This document shows positions 38,352 through 52,791 of a DNA stretch of 64,000 bases, in pieces (positions within the stretch are counted from its first letter, which is position 1; each line of letters opens with the position of its first letter). Origin of the DNA: Erythrobacter sp. (GTDB taxonomy: Bacteria > Pseudomonadota > Alphaproteobacteria > Sphingomonadales > Sphingomonadaceae); contig NZ_JAMWYX010000004.1 in NCBI RefSeq assembly GCF_024305245.1, positions 62,001 through 126,000 of the forward strand. Reading direction: 5' to 3'. The position numbers and the translations under genes were made by a program. The notes below the pieces were generated by a model that did no database searches, was not told the DNA's origin, and saw only the letters and a list, made by a program, of their open reading frames with translations.

Positions 38352-39743
38352 GTGACAATTCGTGCGATCTTTCCGGCGATAGTCGCAGCCCTGTTGCTGT
38401 GCCTCTCCACTGCGTTGCACGCGCAGAGCGCCGCCGACCTGACGGGAGCACCGGCAGCGGAGCCGGCCGAGGCCCTGCCGGACGATCCGATCGACCCCGG
38501 TACCCTGACAGAGGAGACCGATCGCGCAATCGCCAGCGGCCTCGCCAATGTCTTCACCCAGATCGAGGGGCTGCGCGATGTCGGCATCGCGGTGCAATCC
38601 GGCGTGGTCACGCTGTCGGGCACGGTCACCAATCAGGCCGACCGCGAACGCGCCGAAGCCATCGCCGCCCGGATAGAAGGCGTGGTGACCGTGGAGAACG
38701 CGATCGATCGGTCCTACGAAGTGGAAACCAATGTCTCGCCCGCGGTAAAAACGCTGCTCGACAATATGCGCGGGCTGGTGCGCGGCTTGCCGCTGTTCGG
38801 CGTGGCGCTGGTCATCGGCGTTTTGATCGCCGGGCTGGGCTATCTGCTCGCCGGGCGGCGCCGGTTGTGGCTGTGGGCCACGCCCAATCCCTTCCTTGCC
38901 GAGCTGCTGGCCGGCGCGATCCGGGTGGCCGCCATCCTCGCCGGTCTGGTCGTGGCGCTACAGATCGTGGATGCGACCGCGATGCTCGGGCTGGTGCTGG
39001 GGAGCGCGGGCATTATCGGGATCGCCCTGGGCTTCGCGGTGCGCGACACGGTGGACAATTACGTATCGAGCCTGATGCTCAGCCTGAGGCAGCCCTTCCG
39101 GGCGAATGACCACGTGGTGATCGACGGGTGCGAGGGCCGCGTGATCCGGCTGACATCACGCGCCACGGTTCTGATGACGCTGGACGGCAACCATCTGCGC
39201 ATTCCCAATGCCAAGGTCTTCAAGGCGATCATCCTCAACTACACCCGCAACCCGCAGCGCCGGTTCGAGTTCGAACTGGGTGTGGATTCGGCCGATGATC
39301 CGCTGGGCGCGATGGAGGTCGGGCTGCAGGCGATCCGGGCCTTGCCGTTCGTGCTCGATGAACCGCGCAGCCAAGCGGTCATCCAGACGGTGGGGGAATC
39401 GAGCATCATCCTGCGGTTCTTTGCGTGGGTGGACCAAGGCTCGACCGATTTTCTCAAGGGCCGCAGCCTGGCGATTCAGGCGGCCAAGCATGCGGTCGAA
39501 GAGGCGGGGGACGAACTGCCCGAGCCGATCTATCGCATCCGGGTCGATGACCGGCGCAAGTCTTCCGAGCCAGCACCCGCCGATGCGCCGGTCCCGGCGC
39601 CTGCTGCCGCGAAGCCCCGCAAGGCGCCGCCGATGGTCGCCGACGGGGCCGAGCCGGATCGCGCAGTGGAGAAGCTCGTCAGCGAAGAGCGCGGGAGCGC
39701 GGCCGGGAGCGATTTGCTCGATACCCAGCGACCTATCGAATAG
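38352..39743 (+). CDS. BON-domain/MscS-type mechanosensitive channel
   Basis: A 463-aa membrane protein. I chose the GTG at 38352 because it begins a good signal peptide (VTIRAIFPAIVAALLLCLSTALHA). A BON domain follows (IEGLRDVGIAVQSGVVTLSGTVTNQADRERAEAIAARIEGVVTVENAI), then about three membrane helices and the MscS pore/vestibule (LVLGSAGIIGIALGFAVRDTVDNYVSSLMLSLRQPFRANDHVVID). The C-terminal tail is Pro/Ala-rich. It would relieve osmotic downshock; BON domains bind membrane or periplasmic ligands. The frame is open upstream to 38163 without a better start. It converges with and overlaps motB by 11 bases. Confidence 0.85.
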   Translation: MTIRAIFPAIVAALLLCLSTALHAQSAADLTGAPAAEPAEALPDDPIDPGTLTEETDRAIASGLANVFTQIEGLRDVGIAVQSGVVTLSGTVTNQADRERAEAIAARIEGVVTVENAIDRSYEVETNVSPAVKTLLDNMRGLVRGLPLFGVALVIGVLIAGLGYLLAGRRRLWLWATPNPFLAELLAGAIRVAAILAGLVVALQIVDATAMLGLVLGSAGIIGIALGFAVRDTVDNYVSSLMLSLRQPFRANDHVVIDGCEGRVIRLTSRATVLMTLDGNHLRIPNAKVFKAIILNYTRNPQRRFEFELGVDSADDPLGAMEVGLQAIRALPFVLDEPRSQAVIQTVGESSIILRFFAWVDQGSTDFLKGRSLAIQAAKHAVEEAGDELPEPIYRIRVDDRRKSSEPAPADAPVPAPAAAKPRKAPPMVADGAEPDRAVEKLVSEERGSAAGSDLLDTQRPIE

Positions 39744-40653
39744 CGCGCCCCGCGCCTCCGCCCCTGCCTCGGCCTGCGGATTTGCCGTCCAGCAGCAGTA
39801 GCGAAATCCGGCGGTTGCGCGGGTCGGCAGGATTGTCGGCGATCAAAGGCTCGGTATCGGCCACGCCTTCGATCCGGGCAATGCGCGGTTGCTGAACGCC
39901 GCCCAGCACCAGCGCCTGCCGGGTCGCTTCGGCCCTCCCGGTGGACAGCGACCAGTTATTGGCCGCGACCCCGCTACGCCAGGGCAGCGAATCGGTGTGT
40001 CCGCGCAGGATCAGCGGCGCGCTCTCGTCTTTGAGCGTTTCGGCCATGACTTCGAGCAACCCGCGCGCATCCGTGGTCAGGATCGTGGTGCCGAGCTCGA
40101 ACATCGAAAAATCGGCATCGTCGACCAGATCGATCCGGATGCCCTCGGGCGCGCGCATCACCCGAACCTGCCGTGCGAGATGCGAAAGCTGGCGGCGCTG
40201 CACCAGTTTTTTCGCGATCTTGTCGCGCAATTCCTTGAGCTTGTCGGAGTCCAGCTCGCCGCGCCCGCCGCCCTCCATCGGCCCGCCGGTAACGCCGCGC
40301 GGGATGGTGATTGCGCGCGTGCCGGTCTGGCCCATCGCGTTGGGATAATTATCCGCTTCGGTTATGGAGGACCCGCCCAGCAGCCCGTCGGACCCGGCGC
40401 TTTCCTTGCGCATCTTGACCAGCGTGGGGGTGAAATAGTCGGCGATCCCTTTGCGCTGCTTTTCTTCCGTAGCGCCCAGCAGCCACAGCAGCAGGAAGAA
40501 TGCCATCATCGCGGTCACGAAATCGGCATAGGCGACCTTCCACGCCCCGCCGTGGTGACCGCCTTCGACAATGGTGACCTTTTTGACGATGATCGGCGCG
40601 GGCATTGCCGCCGCCGAACCTTCGCCCGATTGGGTTGGATCGGACAGCGCCAC
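39733..40653 (-). CDS. motB: Flagellar stator protein MotB
   Basis: A 306-aa proton-channel and peptidoglycan-anchoring stator subunit. The single membrane helix holds the proton-carrying aspartate: WKVAYADFVTAMMAFFLLLWLL (Asp44). A Gly-rich plug-like linker follows. The OmpA-like domain shows LILRGHTDSLPWRSGVAANNWSLSTGRAEATRQAL and RIARIEGVADTEPLIADNPADPRNRRI. It is the last gene of the flg operon, starting two bases after motA. Confidence 0.95.
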   Translation of the reverse strand: MALSDPTQSGEGSAAAMPAPIIVKKVTIVEGGHHGGAWKVAYADFVTAMMAFFLLLWLLGATEEKQRKGIADYFTPTLVKMRKESAGSDGLLGGSSITEADNYPNAMGQTGTRAITIPRGVTGGPMEGGGRGELDSDKLKELRDKIAKKLVQRRQLSHLARQVRVMRAPEGIRIDLVDDADFSMFELGTTILTTDARGLLEVMAETLKDESAPLILRGHTDSLPWRSGVAANNWSLSTGRAEATRQALVLGGVQQPRIARIEGVADTEPLIADNPADPRNRRISLLLLDGKSAGRGRGGGAGRAIR

Positions 40654-40654
40654 C

Positions 40655-41518
40655 TCAGCGCCCCCGCATCATATCGAGCAGGTCGGTCAGCTTGGGCCGG
40701 TGCGCGGGCGGCAGGCCCGATCGCGCGGCTTCCAGCACCAGTGGCTGCGGATAGCCGTGCAGGCTGGCGATGATGACCTGCTTGATTGAATGGAAGATCT
40801 GGCTGTCGTGGGTGTTGATCTGCTTCAGCCGTGACCCCAGCGGGCCGGCAAAACCATAGGCCAGCAGCACCCCCAGAAACGTGCCGACGAGCGCAGAACC
40901 GATCATTTTGCCGAGAATTTCGGGCGGTTCGTTGATCGCGCCCATCGTCTTGATTATGCCGAGCACCGCTGCGACGATGCCCAGCGCAGGCAATGCATCG
41001 GCGAGCGACTGGATCATGTGCTGCGGCTCGTCCATTTCGTGCAACTGCGTCTTGATCGCGGAATCGATCACTTCCTCGACCGCATGCGTATCGAGCGTAC
41101 CCGATGAAACCACCATCAGCGTCAGCGGATCGCAGATCATCGCGCTCACCACCGGATCGGCCTGCAGGCGCGGATATTCGCTGAAGATGCTGGACGAACC
41201 GGGCTCGGTGACATGGCTTTCCAGCGCGACCGCCCCTTCGGACCGCAGCAGCTTCATCAGCTTGGATGTCAGCGCGATGGCATCGATATGATCTTCGTCG
41301 GTGTATTTCGGCCCCTTGAAGATCTTGCCCACGCCGCTGCCCAGCAGCTTGATCTCGTGCATGGAATTGCCGATCAGCGTGGCGCCCACTGCCGCCCCGC
41401 CGATCATCATGAATTCGAGCGGCAGCGCCTTGAGCACCGGGCCCATCGCGCCGCCAGCGAGCATGAACCCGCCGAACACCATCACCAGCAGCACGACTAT
41501 GCCGATTGCAACAAACAT
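40655..41518 (-). CDS. motA: Flagellar stator protein MotA
   Basis: A 287-aa protein with four membrane helices. The first pair begins MFVAIGIVVLLVMVFGGFMLAGG and LPLEFMMIGGAAVGATLIGN; the second pair is ALPALGIVAAVLGIIKTMGAI and KMIGSALVGTFLGVLLAYGFAGPLGSRLKQ. The cytoplasmic loop carries charged residues that would contact FliG. It follows flgL by 15 bases. Confidence 0.96.
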   Translation of the reverse strand: MFVAIGIVVLLVMVFGGFMLAGGAMGPVLKALPLEFMMIGGAAVGATLIGNSMHEIKLLGSGVGKIFKGPKYTDEDHIDAIALTSKLMKLLRSEGAVALESHVTEPGSSSIFSEYPRLQADPVVSAMICDPLTLMVVSSGTLDTHAVEEVIDSAIKTQLHEMDEPQHMIQSLADALPALGIVAAVLGIIKTMGAINEPPEILGKMIGSALVGTFLGVLLAYGFAGPLGSRLKQINTHDSQIFHSIKQVIIASLHGYPQPLVLEAARSGLPPAHRPKLTDLLDMMRGR

Positions 41519-48748: not shown

Positions 48749-49164
48749 TACTGGCTCCTCAGGGTTTCGAGCATCAGTTGCTTGGCGGTCTGCAGCGCCT
48801 GCACCAGGTTCTGGTACTGGCGCGCGCTCTCCATGATCTCGACCATCTCGGCGGTTTCATCGACCGGGGCTTCGAACACGTAGCCATCGGCATCGGCGAG
48901 CGGGTGGGAGGGATCGTGGCGTTTGGTGGCCGCAGTTTCAGAGCGTACCAGCCCGCTGGAGGTGACCCCGGCAAGGCCCGAGGCGCGATCGAGTTCGACC
49001 GAAAACACCGCGCGGATCGGGCGGTAGGCACCTTCCTCGGTGGTTGAGACCGACCCGGCATTGGCGAGGTTCGATGTCGCCGCATTCATCCGCACCATCT
49101 GCGCGCTCATCGCGCGGGTGGTCATGGAGAACAGTGTCATGGGAGCGCGTTCGGGCATCGTCAT
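48748..49164 (-). CDS. flgC: Flagellar proximal rod protein FlgC
   Basis: A 138-aa rod protein: LFSMTTRAMSAQMVRMNAATSNLANAGSVSTTEEGAYRPIRAVF at the start, HPLADADGYVFEAPVDETAEMVEIMESARQYQNLVQALQTAKQLMLETL at the end. It overlaps flgB by four bases. A shorter start (MTLFSM) is also possible. Confidence 0.94.
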   Translation of the reverse strand: MTMPERAPMTLFSMTTRAMSAQMVRMNAATSNLANAGSVSTTEEGAYRPIRAVFSVELDRASGLAGVTSSGLVRSETAATKRHDPSHPLADADGYVFEAPVDETAEMVEIMESARQYQNLVQALQTAKQLMLETLRSQ

Positions 49165-49514
49165 TCACCCTTCAGCGCGCGGGTGATGGTGCTGACCTTG
49201 CCTTGCACAAAGCTGAGCGTCGCCGAATAGGCGACCGCGTTTTCGGCAAAGGCGACCTGTTCGTGGTTCAGTTCGACCGTGTTGCCATCCAGCGTCGGCA
49301 TGGTCGGCGTGCGCCACACCATGCCGGCCTGCGGATCGGCGAGATTGTTGCCGCGCTGATTGGCGAGCCGGGCATCGAGCGCGGCACCGAAATCGATGTC
49401 GCGCGCCTTGTATCCAGGCGTCGCGGCATTGGCGATGTTGGAGGCGATCACGCCCATGCGTTCTGACCGCAGGGTCAGCGCCGCGCCGTGAATGCCGAAC
49501 AATCTTTCGTTCAT
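49161..49514 (-). CDS. flgB: Flagellar proximal rod protein FlgB
   Basis: A 117-aa rod protein: LFGIHGAALTLRSERMGVIASNIANAATPGYKARDIDFGAALDAR and ELNHEQVAFAENAVAYSATLSFVQGKVSTITRAL are diagnostic. It is the first gene of the flg operon, 66 bases after a perfect sigma-54 promoter. Confidence 0.95.
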   Translation of the reverse strand: MNERLFGIHGAALTLRSERMGVIASNIANAATPGYKARDIDFGAALDARLANQRGNNLADPQAGMVWRTPTMPTLDGNTVELNHEQVAFAENAVAYSATLSFVQGKVSTITRALKGE

Positions 49515-49579: not shown

Positions 49580-49595
49580 AGCACGAAGCGTGCCA
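49580..49595 (-). promoter_or_regulatory. Sigma-54 promoter for the flgB operon
   Basis: On the minus strand it reads TGGCACGCTTCGTGCT: -24 TGGCACG, four bases, -12 GTGCT with correct GG-N10-GC spacing. It lies 66 bases before the flgB ATG. The two palindromes at 49639 and 49661 are about 45-80 bases upstream, where an activator would bind. Confidence 0.85.
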
Positions 49596-49674: not shown

Positions 49675-49762
49675 GCAAATACCTAGTTCTTAATCCGGCA
49701 GCGCCGCTGACGTTCTGCCCTTGCGACCGCACTGATTTGCGTGGGGCCAGCGAGGGAAACCG

Positions 49763-50437
49763 ATGCCAGACAGATTCAGCGCCCTCATCGATCCGGGCGC
49801 CTTCACCATCGTGGTGGCAGGCACTGTGCTGGCCTGCGCCGCACGCTGCGGCTGGCGCGATTTCGGCGCGGCTTTGCGAGAGGCGGGGGCGCTGGCGAAG
49901 CCCGGCTTCGATGCCGAGGCCAATCGCAAGGCGCTGGCACTGGCGGTCACGGCGATCAGGCGCGATGGTCCACGCCGCGCCGATCCGGCACTGCCGCCCG
50001 ACCGGGCGCTGGGGCTGATGCTCGAAACCTATCTGCGCCACGGCTCGCTGGAGGCGTTGCACCGCATTCGCCGATCCGAACGCGCGCTCGACGAGGCGCG
50101 GCGGGTGGCGGCGGCGCAGGTGTTCGCATGGGCGGGCGAACTGGCCCCGGTATTCGGGCTGATCGGCACGCTCTACGCCTTCACCCAGCTGGCCCCGCCC
50201 AGCGGCGCGAATGCGATCGGCGTGACGCTGGCTGCGGTCGCGACCTCGGTACTTTCCACTCTCTACGGCGCGCTGCTGGCTCACCTTGCCTGCTATCCGC
50301 TGGCCGGCGCGATCGAGCGGCGCGGGTTTGCGCGAGAGGAACAGCGCGAGGCGCTGGCCGACTGGTTCGTCGAACAGATCGCCGCTCCTGCCGTGCACCC
50401 GCATGACGGGCGCACGCATTTGCGGGGTGTGGCATGA
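49763..50437 (+). CDS. Compact MotA/TolQ/ExbB-like proton-channel protein
   Basis: A 224-aa predicted inner-membrane protein. A first hydrophobic helix (AFTIVVAGTVLACAARCG, about 13-29) resembles MotA's second helix rather than its first, so the usual TM1 seems absent. After a ~95-residue cytoplasmic loop come GELAPVFGLIGTLYAFTQL and GVTLAAVATSVLSTLYGALLAHLACYPLAGAIERR, which match the last two helices of MotA/ExbB. GAGGG lies seven bases before the ATG. It is coupled (ATGA) to a small MotB/ExbD-like gene and divergent from flgB. The canonical motAB pair is elsewhere in the same island, so this is a second motor-type pair of unknown role. Confidence 0.8.
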   Translation: MPDRFSALIDPGAFTIVVAGTVLACAARCGWRDFGAALREAGALAKPGFDAEANRKALALAVTAIRRDGPRRADPALPPDRALGLMLETYLRHGSLEALHRIRRSERALDEARRVAAAQVFAWAGELAPVFGLIGTLYAFTQLAPPSGANAIGVTLAAVATSVLSTLYGALLAHLACYPLAGAIERRGFAREEQREALADWFVEQIAAPAVHPHDGRTHLRGVA

Positions 50438-50916
50438 GCGCGGGCACTGTTTCCATCAAAAGCAGCGGTCATGGCTGGCAGCTGATCCTGGCCGACCTTG
50501 CGCTGATCCTGTTCCTGCTGATTCTGACCGCGCTGCCCGCTGCAGAGGCCGAGGCCGGGCGGAAAGCCGCTGTTCGCGCCGTACGCGGGGAGCAGGCGCG
50601 GGCGGCCTCCGTCACAGCTGAAATTGCTGCGGCGCAGGCGCTTTATCGCCCCGTGGCAGGCGGGCCGACATTGAGCGAATGGCTTGCTGCACAGCCGCAT
50701 GATCCGCGCGCCACGCTGACGATCTTCGCGCGCTACGACGCGGAGAATGCGGATGCACCGCGGCGGGCATCGGCGGCATGGGATGCGGCGCGCGGATTGG
50801 CTGCGAGCGCGGCGGGCAGCGGCGTGGCGGTGCGCACCATCATCACCGCTGGCGGCGAGGCCGATCTCTATGCCAGCCTTGCCTATGATCAGGTGCAGGC
50901 AGCGTCGGTGCGATAA
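50434..50916 (+). CDS. Small MotB/ExbD-like membrane protein
   Basis: A 160-aa protein with one N-terminal helix that carries a single buried acid: WQLILADLALILFLLILTALP (Asp21), the arrangement of the proton-carrying Asp in MotB/ExbD/TolR. An Ala/Glu/Arg-rich predicted coiled segment follows, then a compact domain (ATLTIFARYDAENADAPRRAS, AWDAARGLAASAAGSGVAVRTIITAGGEADLY) with the rhythm of a degenerate OmpA-like fold; the usual peptidoglycan-contact residues of MotB are not evident. Its ATG overlaps the MotA-like stop (ATGA). It is not the main MotB (encoded at 39.7 kb). Confidence 0.7.
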   Translation: MSAGTVSIKSSGHGWQLILADLALILFLLILTALPAAEAEAGRKAAVRAVRGEQARAASVTAEIAAAQALYRPVAGGPTLSEWLAAQPHDPRATLTIFARYDAENADAPRRASAAWDAARGLAASAAGSGVAVRTIITAGGEADLYASLAYDQVQAASVR

Positions 50917-50931: not shown

Positions 50932-52032
50932 TCAGCCCACCATCACCCGGTTGCGGCCTTCCTGCTTGGCGCGGTACAGCGCTGCATCGGCCCGCGCGAG
51001 TGCGCTGCGGGTGTCGGTATCCTCGGTCACTTCGGCCACCCCGCCCGAAAAGGTCACGCGCCCGAACGGCTGACCGGTGTCGCGGTTCATCAGCAGGCGT
51101 GCGGCCTGCGCGCGGCGGATCGCATCGAGCTTCGCGCGCGCTGCGTTCTTGTCCATGCCGTAGAACAGCAGGACGAATTCCTCACCGCCGTGGCGTCCGA
51201 CGAAGCAGGCAGACCCGGCGTGTTCGTTGAGCGTCCCCGCCAGCGCGCACAGCACCCGGTCGCCCGCCTCGTGGCCGTGGCGATCATTGACCAGCTTGAA
51301 GTGGTCGACATCGCAGAACGCCAGGCTCAACGCCTCGCCCTTGGCCCGCGCTTCGAGCGAGGCGGACACCAGCCGGCGTTCGAAGGCGCGGCGGTTGGGC
51401 AGCCCGGTGAGGTGATCGACATCGGCCTCCATCCGTGCCTTGGCGAGGTTTTCCCGCAGGCGATCGGTTTCTTCCTGACTGCGCGCCATCGAGGCTTCGG
51501 CCTGTTCGATCCGCGCCAGCATCGCCCGCGACAGGTCGATCACCTGCGCCAGCTCGCCCGCTGCCGCCGGGGCGAGATCGATGTCGGCCATCGCCTCGAT
51601 CTTCGCGCCCAGCGCGCCGCGATGATCGCTGGTCTCGCTGCGCGCCGAACGCGCGGTCTGAGCGAAGCGCATCAGCGAATATTCGAGCTTGTCCATGAGT
51701 GCTTCCAGCCCGGCGATGCGCGAATGCCCCTCGGGATCGAGCCGCGCCAGCGTATCGAGCCAGCGCTGGTCGATCGGCTCGCCCGCGATCTCGCGCGCGG
51801 TGAAGGCCTGCGCCAGTTCGGGATGCGAACCCGACAGGCCGCCGCAGATGGTGGAGAGATTGCTGGCGGTGACGGCCAGATCATGGGTTTCCACGAATTC
51901 GCCGATCCGCGCCAACAGCGCGCGGCGGGCTTCCTCGGCGCGGCTGGCCGGTGGCGTATCCGTTGCCGCATCGGCGGCGGCCGGATCGTGCGGACGGTAG
52001 GAACGGGTAAGGAAACGGGTTGCGAAGGTCAT
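50932..52032 (-). CDS. Cytoplasmic GGDEF diguanylate cyclase
   Basis: A 366-aa protein without membrane segments. A helical N-terminal region (about 220 aa, coiled-coil-prone near ARIEQAEASMARSQEETDRLRENLAKARME) precedes a GGDEF domain (DVDHLTGLPNRRAFERRL, FCDVDHFKLVNDRHGHEAGDRVLCALA) with active motif GGEEF (282-286). The RxxD inhibitory site five residues before that motif is absent. It should make c-di-GMP, which often tunes motility. A sigma-28-like promoter lies just before it. Start ATG 52032 was preferred to 52062. It converges with the MotB-like gene. Confidence 0.9.
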   Translation of the reverse strand: MTFATRFLTRSYRPHDPAAADAATDTPPASRAEEARRALLARIGEFVETHDLAVTASNLSTICGGLSGSHPELAQAFTAREIAGEPIDQRWLDTLARLDPEGHSRIAGLEALMDKLEYSLMRFAQTARSARSETSDHRGALGAKIEAMADIDLAPAAAGELAQVIDLSRAMLARIEQAEASMARSQEETDRLRENLAKARMEADVDHLTGLPNRRAFERRLVSASLEARAKGEALSLAFCDVDHFKLVNDRHGHEAGDRVLCALAGTLNEHAGSACFVGRHGGEEFVLLFYGMDKNAARAKLDAIRRAQAARLLMNRDTGQPFGRVTFSGGVAEVTEDTDTRSALARADAALYRAKQEGRNRVMVG

Positions 52033-52051
52033 GGTAAAGCCCCGGCGTCTG

Positions 52052-52077
52052 GAATCGGACAATTTCGCAGGGACTTA
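52052..52077 (-). promoter_or_regulatory. Possible sigma-28 promoter for the GGDEF gene
   Basis: On the minus strand it reads TAAG, 14 bases, TCCGATTC. It keeps the spacing of the fliC and flgM promoters and the CCGAT core, but has two changes at the ends and would leave only about 20 bases to the ATG. Confidence 0.38.
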
Positions 52078-52146
52078 CCCCGATCATGCTTAAGCCGTGA
52101 CCAGCCCCGCCTCCGGTAAGACCCGTAGGCCGGTTCCGGTCGCACT

Positions 52147-52162
52147 TGGCACGACCTTTGCT
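52147..52162 (+). promoter_or_regulatory. Sigma-54 promoter for flgA-flgM-flgN
   Basis: TGGCACGACCTTTGCT: -24 TGGCACG, four bases, -12 TTGCT; perfect consensus spacing. It lies 43 bases before the flgA ATG, in the 173-base spacer divergent from the GGDEF gene. Confidence 0.87.
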
Positions 52163-52205
52163 GAACCTCGGGCGGATATTCCGTCCGCATGACAGGAGCA
52201 CACGC

Positions 52206-52745
52206 ATGGAAATCACCAATCCCTGGCCCGATGGCTGGCGGCTCGCCCCGCTGGCGGCAGCGATGCTGCTGCCGCTGTGCGATCCCCCGGCCGAAGCGCA
52301 GACGCGCACGCAGCCGGCATCGATCGACCGCGCGGTGGCAGAATTCACCGGCGCGGCACCCGGCACCCCCGGCGGCGCGCGCGCACCGGCCGACCCGCGC
52401 TTGCAACTCGCCGCCTGTGCCGGGCCGTTGGCGGTCTCGTGGCATGGCAATGCGCGCAATTCGGTGCGGGTCGAATGCCCCGGTCCGGACGTCTGGCGCG
52501 TGTTCGTCGCGGTCGACGGCGCGGACGGCAGTGCCGCTTCGAACCGCCCTGCCCCGCCAGCGATCAAGCGCGGCGATGCGCTGACGATACAGGTGCGCGG
52601 GCGCGGCTTTTCCGTGCAGCAGCAGGGCGAGGCGATGGAAAGCGGCGCGGTGGGCGAATGGATCTTCGTGCGCACCGCACGCAAGGCCGAAGCCCTGCGT
52701 GCCCGGATCGAGCGCCCCGGCTTGGCGGTCATCCCGGCAAGCTGA
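52206..52745 (+). CDS. flgA: Flagellar P-ring assembly chaperone FlgA
   Basis: A 179-aa periplasmic chaperone for FlgI. A short signal-like N-terminus (LAPLAAAMLLPLCDPPAEAQ) is followed by the SAF-type domain with IKRGDALTIQVRGRGFSVQQQGEAMESGAVGEWIFVRTARKAEALRARIERPGLAVI. GACAGGAG lies shortly before the ATG at 52206. Upstream in-frame start codons at 52146 lie over the promoter and are not used. It is followed by flgM and flgN, the flgAMN order of enterics. Confidence 0.85.
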   Translation: MEITNPWPDGWRLAPLAAAMLLPLCDPPAEAQTRTQPASIDRAVAEFTGAAPGTPGGARAPADPRLQLAACAGPLAVSWHGNARNSVRVECPGPDVWRVFVAVDGADGSAASNRPAPPAIKRGDALTIQVRGRGFSVQQQGEAMESGAVGEWIFVRTARKAEALRARIERPGLAVIPAS

Positions 52746-52765
52746 AGAAATCTTTAAACCTCCCT

Positions 52766-52791
52766 TAAAGCAGGCCCCGCACAGCCGTTCT
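52766..52791 (+). promoter_or_regulatory. Sigma-28 (FliA) promoter for flgM
   Basis: TAAA (52766-52769), 14 bases, GCCGTTCT from 52784. Spacing is identical to the fliC promoter. flgM ATG follows at 52824. The location allows flgM to be made both from the sigma-54 flgA promoter and from sigma-28. Confidence 0.62.

Follow-up and report, generated by a model that had tools for sequence, protein, structure and literature searches.

In the published picture, flagellar stators share one structural plan, marked by a set of four membrane helices, an interface for torque and a B subunit that binds the wall, and the PomA-like type among them has been named TGI4 (PMC12505986, in the sections of that source available to us). 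For PomA, residues R88, D114 and E96 are reported to be indispensable for motility; at positions T158, T185 and T186, Thr is reported as conserved in all the sodium-driven units covered there, whereas two proton-driven ones carry Ala at T158 and T185 (PMC10374538, available sections). Outside the flagellum, SiiAB from the type I secretion system of Salmonella SPI-4 is a precedent for a channel of the Mot/Exb/Tol type that serves one envelope machine, and wall binding by SiiA has been reported from experiments (PMC12607715, available sections).

Here we analyse a 64,000-nucleotide stretch of Erythrobacter sp. DNA (hereafter the window), a flagellar island that includes the ORFs of a small gene pair, A and B, with features of reduced stator genes. 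No published description of the pair was found in the literature searched, which consisted of open-licence papers, and one may still have been published; the Zymomonas gene names motA1/motB1, as they appear in the available part of one report, hint that annotators have numbered a second pair (PMC9797736).

Organization of the locus

A reading of this DNA from its letters only (the sequence-only reading) had proposed that two genes joined by an ATGA overlap lie beside flgB and code for proteins with features of MotA and MotB. Both ORFs are present, with the lengths and positions that it gave (Table 1), and an overlap of 4 nt recurs in 39/43 homologous pairs when the start nearest to the A stop is taken as that of B. 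The divergent ORF next to A, which we take to be flgB from its position, is followed in the window by the pair, a GGDEF gene and then flgA. This GGDEF gene is a variable member of the flgB-flgA slot; 43 of the 80 named loci described below have a match to a ggdef query close to the pair. Canonical motA and motB, correctly recognized in the earlier reading, occupy the same island, 8-10 kb from the pair. The whole genome contains four PF01618 genes, namely motA, A and two others elsewhere, which we read as TolQ and ExbB.

Table 1. Positions of the gene pair, its neighbours and candidate control elements in the window.
Feature	Position	Strand	Description
A gene (working name minA)	49763..50437	+	224-aa PomA/MotA-type channel protein without TM1
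B gene (working name minB)	50434..50916	+	160-aa protein; membrane helix with Asp21 and short periplasmic domain
ATGA stop/start overlap of A and B	50434..50437	+	
flgB	49161..49514	-	Divergent neighbour of A; named by position
flgA	52146..52745	+	Other conserved flank of the pair
GGDEF gene	50932-52062	-	Between the pair and flgA
Canonical motA	40655..41518	-	MotA_N and MotA_ExbB
Canonical motB	39733..40653	-	MotB_plug and OmpA; GHTD and NRR motifs present
Promoter-like motif TTAA ... GACGTTCT	49690..49716	+	Upstream of A
Same promoter-like motif	52765..52791	+	Upstream of flgM
Sigma-54-like -24/-12 site TGGCACGCTTCGTGCT	49580..49595	-	For the divergent flgB operon

A belongs to the PomA-type stator lineage

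The A protein matched the Pfam family MotA_ExbB with 31.3 bits (cut-off 22.9), and its NCBIfam matches were to PomA, MotP and related motor models, all far under their cut-offs. Forty-three A/B pairs were picked by patterns that contain some of the channel residues and none of the rotor-face positions. A profile of their A proteins retrieved PomA at 1.7e-44 and the MotA of several bacteria down to 2e-18, with TolQ (3e-4) and ExbB (0.01) far behind. The structural model of A (pLDDT 92.6) has a MotA-type core, and its matches at E<=1e-3 comprise 23 chains, all of them PomA or MotA (best TM 0.77), those to TolQ/ExbB starting at 8e-3.

Phylogenetic analysis of 80 proteins grouped A with PomA and 20 alphaproteobacterial PomA-type MotAs, on branches that are long relative to motA, and a single origin of A within this PomA-type part was recovered in 57% of bootstrap trees. 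The 14 resident MotAs formed a separate, well-supported group with a branch length of 2.84, which rules out an origin of the pair by recent duplication of the resident motAB. By sequence, fold and tree, A is a member of the PomA-like (TGI4) flagellar stator lineage and not of TolQ/ExbB, so that the kinship with flagella on which the sequence-only reading hinged is borne out. The resident canonical MotAB we read as TGI5.

A has lost the first helix, kept the ion path and diverged at the rotor face

The part of PomA covered by the A profile is residues 26-222, A itself beginning at the start of the second PomA helix. Likewise, the A model begins at the equivalent of TM2, without the four-helix square membrane domain of flagellar stators. 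Even in the longest open frame, an upstream membrane helix was possible in 0/43 A homologues, as compared with its presence in 14/14 resident MotAs. These results rule out a mis-called start that hides TM1 and uphold the earlier claim that A misses the first MotA helix. In the model, helix 96-141 (TM3) is predicted to be unbroken, without the kinked TM3 that characterizes ExbBD/TolQR.

A profile search, with the profile built from the 43 picked pairs, yielded 129 A segments once nine resident MotAs had been set aside. The residues corresponding to PomA P151, T158 and P199 are P, T and P, each in 128/129 segments, the remaining row being truncated; the T185 position holds T in 88, S in 33, A in 6 and C in 1, and the T186 position T in 98 and S in 30. 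The window protein carries T136, S165 and T166 at the positions of T158, T185 and T186, where the resident MotA has A, G and T in 14/14 cases. The pair retains the ion-binding Asp in B and the Pro/Thr residues in TM3-TM4 of A that are features of stators. These Thr/Ser positions suggest that the ion is sodium, and the label 'proton-driven' given by the sequence-only reading finds no support in A, which carries Thr/Ser where sodium-driven stators are reported to have Thr.

The set of FliG-contact charges of TGI4 stators (PomA R88, E96 and D114, also K89) is not preserved in A. At the R88 position, R was found in 15/43 A proteins versus R/K in 20/20 ordinary alphaproteobacterial PomA-type MotAs, and the D114 position is acidic in 8/43 and R in 16/43, against D in 20/20 of the same controls. 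The E96 position is acidic in 28/43 A proteins versus 8/20 controls. The 12 distant A proteins have an acidic E96 in 12/12 and an acidic D114 in 6/12, and across all 129 segments R occupies the R88 position in 41, and an acidic residue the D114 position in 15 and the E96 position in 72; in the window protein, R66 aligns to R88, D74 to E96 and R92 to D114. Two of the three FliG-contact charges have thus drifted with respect to ordinary PomA-type stators. The cytoplasmic region retains its length, and the fold of A is near that of PomA (TM 0.77), so that contact with a rotor is possible.

B is a shortened MotB derivative

Searched against Pfam and NCBIfam up to E 10, the window B matched no family, and hence neither OmpA nor MotB_plug. 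Its model (pLDDT 86) is predicted to contain a long helix, residues 13-58, and a small alpha-beta domain, with Asp21 within the confidently predicted helix, in keeping with the single Asp-bearing helix proposed earlier. An Asp in or at the membrane helix was present in 56/56 B proteins picked without an Asp criterion and in 71/71 named B proteins, whose search pattern contained the Asp. B frames were found for all but one of 128 A segments, the exception being L013, which has a stop. The best Foldseek match of the B domain was the periplasmic domain of SiiA, a weak one (E 0.017, none at 1e-3).

A profile of window-type B found no MotB or OmpA chain, and these proteins have conserved residues of their own, among them R134 in 30/31 and D152 in 29/31. 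Among the 12 distant B proteins, ten match OmpA and eight MotB_plug, and they also match PomB/MotB chains, showing that B descends from MotB. In MotB-type proteins, an Arg in a helix of the OmpA-like part and the GHTD and NRR motifs have a role in wall binding. The helix Arg is kept in 12/12 distant B proteins and a literal GHTD or NRR in 0/12; L081 has GGTD at the place of GHTD, in about four others an Asp lies close by, and the place of NRR is taken by an RR pair in L080 and L082. The linker of distant B proteins spans 7-32 residues in 11/12 and 81 in L087.

The wall-binding part is unrecognizable in window-type B, and eroded yet partly kept in distant B. Judged by its lack of OmpA and MotB_plug matches, the window B does not have the combination of plug, linker and expanded OmpA-like wall-binding domain that marks the B subunit of TGI4, distant relatives being mixed. 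The shrunken, degenerate OmpA-like part described in the sequence-only reading agrees with the lack of an OmpA match in the window B and with the partial retention of the domain in distant relatives. Its further claim, that obvious wall-anchoring residues are missing, fits the window B and does not extend to the distant relatives, which keep parts of the OmpA-like domain. Their OmpA match, Arg, GGTD, RR and the L087 linker make wall binding possible there.

The pair is linked to flgB, common in flagellated members of the family and optional

Among 298 genomes of the family, which we read as Sphingomonadaceae, B was found in 57, A in 127 and flhA in 206, all 57 being among the 127; because some genomes without an A hit contain diverged pairs, at least 127 are A-positive. 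Of these, 126/127 contain flhA, whereas A was found in 1/92 flhA-negative genomes, a 77%-complete assembly. Exactly one canonical MotA, recognized by MotA_N, was present in 45/45 checked genomes with an A hit.

We inspected 40 loci, 28 of which had been chosen for a strong or weak A hit. The A gene or a MotA-like ORF occurred between flgB and flgA in 28/28 of these, and the other 12 comprised four with the same cluster minus the pair (L096, L097, L100 and L101), seven with another cluster type and one that could not be judged. In a scan of named genomes, 210/280 pattern matches encode B, and the 80 kept come from Erythrobacter, Porphyrobacter, Novosphingobium, Altererythrobacter and relatives. 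A adjoins B in 80/80 of these loci, and flgB is at most three genes away in 77/80, the other three starting near a contig end, so the position beside flgB seen in the window is a general one among them. The flgB-flgA slot of L097, L202 and L203 (genus g85) holds an LPP20-like ORF and a FlgT_N-containing ORF instead of the pair, as found by a Pfam scan of L202 and by reading the same ORFs in L097 and L203; FlgT_N occurred in 3/61 genomes searched, all of genus g85. Loci L091-L095, L102 and L103 contain a distinct type of flagellar cluster, with another FlhA and no pair at that place, and several genomes of the family have two or more FlhA matches.

Among 20 flhA-positive genomes without an A hit, three have a diverged pair (L186, L201 and L204), 14 are clearly without the pair with flgB and flgA present, two are probably without it and one could not be judged. 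The absence of the pair from flagellar genomes that have flgB and flgA indicates that it is common but optional.

Across the class, a search with the A1 profile gave matches in 118/289 genomes at E<=1e-10. Outside the family, these matches are open frames of at least 255 aa, except for a 136-aa partial one (G355), and a hydrophobic N-terminus was seen in 20/20 out-of-family loci read; within this thin sample of 289 genomes of the class, reduced forms of A were seen in the family alone. In the loci from other alphaproteobacterial families (L205-L224), the ordinary PomA-type motA is located about 1.5-2 kb upstream of flhA in 15/20.

Measured against 14 relatives, A and B have median dN/dS values of 0.27 and 0.25. 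The corresponding figures are 0.09 for motA (from 9 relatives, some of them partial), 0.17 for flgB, 0.24 for flgN and 0.36 for flgA, all from simple Nei-Gojobori counts with high dS. Both A and B are under purifying selection, maintained yet fast-evolving, and these ratios, together with homologues in 57 and 127 of the 298 genomes, rule out that they are chance ORFs. A split frame or in-frame stop interrupts A or B in L016 (G079), G263 and G290, possibly as a result of recent losses or assembly errors.

The spacer between flgB and A holds two separate candidate control elements

On the flgB side, the sigma-54-like site reaches a score of at least 18 in 42/43 homologous spacers, as compared with 4/43 loci in which forward sites of this kind upstream of A reach 18. 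On the A side, the motif T[ATG]A[AGT]-N13-17-NNCGTTCT was found in 27/31 close pairs and 0/12 distant pairs, versus 0.14% of shuffles. In a set of 95 loci, some of which share a genome, this motif precedes A in 77/93 and flgM in 48/58, and each other gene tested in at most one case; within the 64-kb window, sites of a stricter form lie upstream of A and flgM alone. The sequence-only reading had the pair sharing a regulatory spacer with the flgB operon; the spacer is indeed the same, and within it the flgB-side sigma-54-like site and the A-side motif are separate.

An interpretation of the A/flgM motif as a general flagellar sigma-28 site is unsupported, since the exact form CTAAA-N14-16-GCCGTTCT is absent from the Erythrobacter genome itself, and TAAA-N14-16-GCCGTTCT occurs in that genome once, at flgM. 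The A-side motif is promoter-like, and may not be a promoter. Its occurrence before both A and flgM suggests late expression of A, and of the pair, with flgM.

Comparison with described systems

The pair resembles PomAB of the TGI4 type (Vibrio PomAB) in the lineage and fold of A, the Pro/Gly/Thr residues of TM3/TM4, the Asp of the B helix and its arrangement as an A-B pair in a flagellar cluster. Unlike PomAB, it has an A without TM1 in which two of three FliG-contact charges have drifted, and a small B with most of the linker gone and the wall-binding part eroded; furthermore, it coexists with a canonical MotAB and evolves fast. The canonical MotAB of the same genomes shares with the pair the gene island and the general channel type, but it is of a separate lineage, has four helices and possesses a MotB with GHTD and NRR.

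ExbBD and TolQR have in common with the pair a three-helix A subunit, a small periplasmic domain in B and, probably, a periplasmic output, whereas the sequence and fold of A are those of the flagellar stator lineage, and TM3 is unbroken in the model. No gene for a TonB/TolA-like or other periplasmic partner of the pair was found. SiiAB is also a small channel of the Mot/Exb/Tol type that serves a single envelope machine, and the periplasmic domain of SiiA is the best, albeit weak, structural match of the B domain. In contrast with SiiA, however, the window B shows no wall-binding motif, and the neighbours of the pair, in the window and in relatives, are flagellar, with no type I secretion linkage encountered at the locus. 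In our classification, the pair combines stator descent with a retained stator channel, yet it is not to be filed as a functional stator, because the window pair lacks a four-helix A, the full set of FliG-contact charges and a wall-binding B.

Discussion

The explanation that we favour, with a rough probability just short of one half (0.47), is that reduction has turned a flagellar stator into an ion-driven accessory, which probably acts on a periplasmic partner and not on FliG. A and B would form an ion-driven channel complex, presumably with a 5:2 stoichiometry, descended from a stator of the PomA/PomB type (TGI4). Its reduction would have occurred inside the flagellar cluster, with A losing TM1 and most rotor-contact charges and B much of its linker, and with the window type also losing any recognizable wall-binding domain. 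Ion flow through the channel formed by TM3/TM4 and the Asp, which is kept, would make the B dimer rotate or shift, and the output would most likely be passed to a partner in the periplasm, close to the basal body, an arrangement like that of ExbBD, TolQR and SiiAB. The unit would thus be an optional, probably late flagellar accessory rather than a torque-generating stator. An ion-driven accessory is favoured by the kept channel, the drifted rotor face, the weakened anchor, the constant presence of a normal stator and the probable late control, and a periplasmic output in particular by the drift of the FliG face and the weakness or loss of the wall anchor.

The strongest competitor, which we nevertheless consider unlikely, is an auxiliary stator, one of the options offered by the sequence-only reading. 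It might use sodium and be recruited to the C-ring in certain situations, with a weak anchor or with an anchor made of other periplasmic proteins. Shewanella, where PomAB occurs next to MotAB, provides a precedent for such a stator, and the PomA-type lineage and fold, the flagellar linkage and co-occurrence with flhA, the intact channel with Na+-type Thr/Ser positions, the acidic E96 in 28/43 A proteins and the partly kept wall-binding domain of distant B are all consistent with it. The drifted FliG-contact residues, however, argue against an ordinary auxiliary stator, R88 and D114 being unconserved in A though kept by 20/20 ordinary PomA-type relatives; the same holds for the absence of TM1 in 43/43 and for a window-type B without a recognizable wall-binding domain.

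Less probable again, and in our opinion improbable, is that the pair regulates the main stators, competing with MotAB for places in the motor or serving as a brake or leak, and in this way tunes speed. The single canonical MotA found alongside in 45/45 checked genomes would fit such a role, as would the motif shared with flgM, which suggests late expression with the motor. But the distance between A and the resident MotA (branch 2.84) makes mixed rings unlikely, and the invariance of the channel residues goes beyond the need of a passive competitor.

We give little credence to an assembly energiser for the formation of the rod, the P-ring or a gap in the peptidoglycan. The idea draws on the conserved place between flgB and flgA, with flgB at most three genes away in 77/80 loci and the other three near a contig end, but 14 of the 20 flagellar genomes without an A hit have no pair while flgB and flgA are in place. 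Moreover, the A motif is shared with flgM, which speaks against an early function in the rod or in export, the latter another option of the sequence-only reading, and the flgB side has its own sigma-54-like site. A decaying relic of an old stator is highly improbable: the long branches and the dN/dS above that of motA, as well as the few frames that are split or carry an internal stop (G263, G290 and G079), would be expected of one, but dN/dS values of 0.25-0.27 are near that of flgN and below that of flgA, and the channel residues are near-invariant in very distant members. Finally, an ordinary ExbBD or TolQR set lying here by chance, an idea encouraged by the MotA/TolQ/ExbB Pfam family of A and by its three-helix layout as in ExbB, is for practical purposes ruled out by the A profile, the structure matches and the tree, as PomA outscores TolQ and ExbB by far in both sequence and structure, and two other PF01618 genes (read as TolQ and ExbB) exist elsewhere in the genome.

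Returning to a stator reduced to an ion-driven accessory with a periplasmic target, we tentatively put forward a more specific and more doubtful proposal, in which a stator has evolved back toward a Tol/Exb-like energiser. The pair would then be a second, rotor-independent flagellar ion motor of much of the family. Its late action would be directed at a part of the basal body in the periplasm or the outer membrane, and its supply might be sodium, beside a main motor of the proton type.

The pair represents a branch of the stator lineage in which one mark, TM1, has been dropped in all examined members and two others have been eroded. Even so, selection maintains this reduced form in many Sphingomonadaceae, alongside normal stators. 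If it drives a target other than FliG, a torque motor would have been turned into an envelope energiser, and the parts of stators that serve torque and those that serve ion flow would be separable by natural comparison. Within the literature searched, the pair points to an undescribed component of the sphingomonad flagellum.
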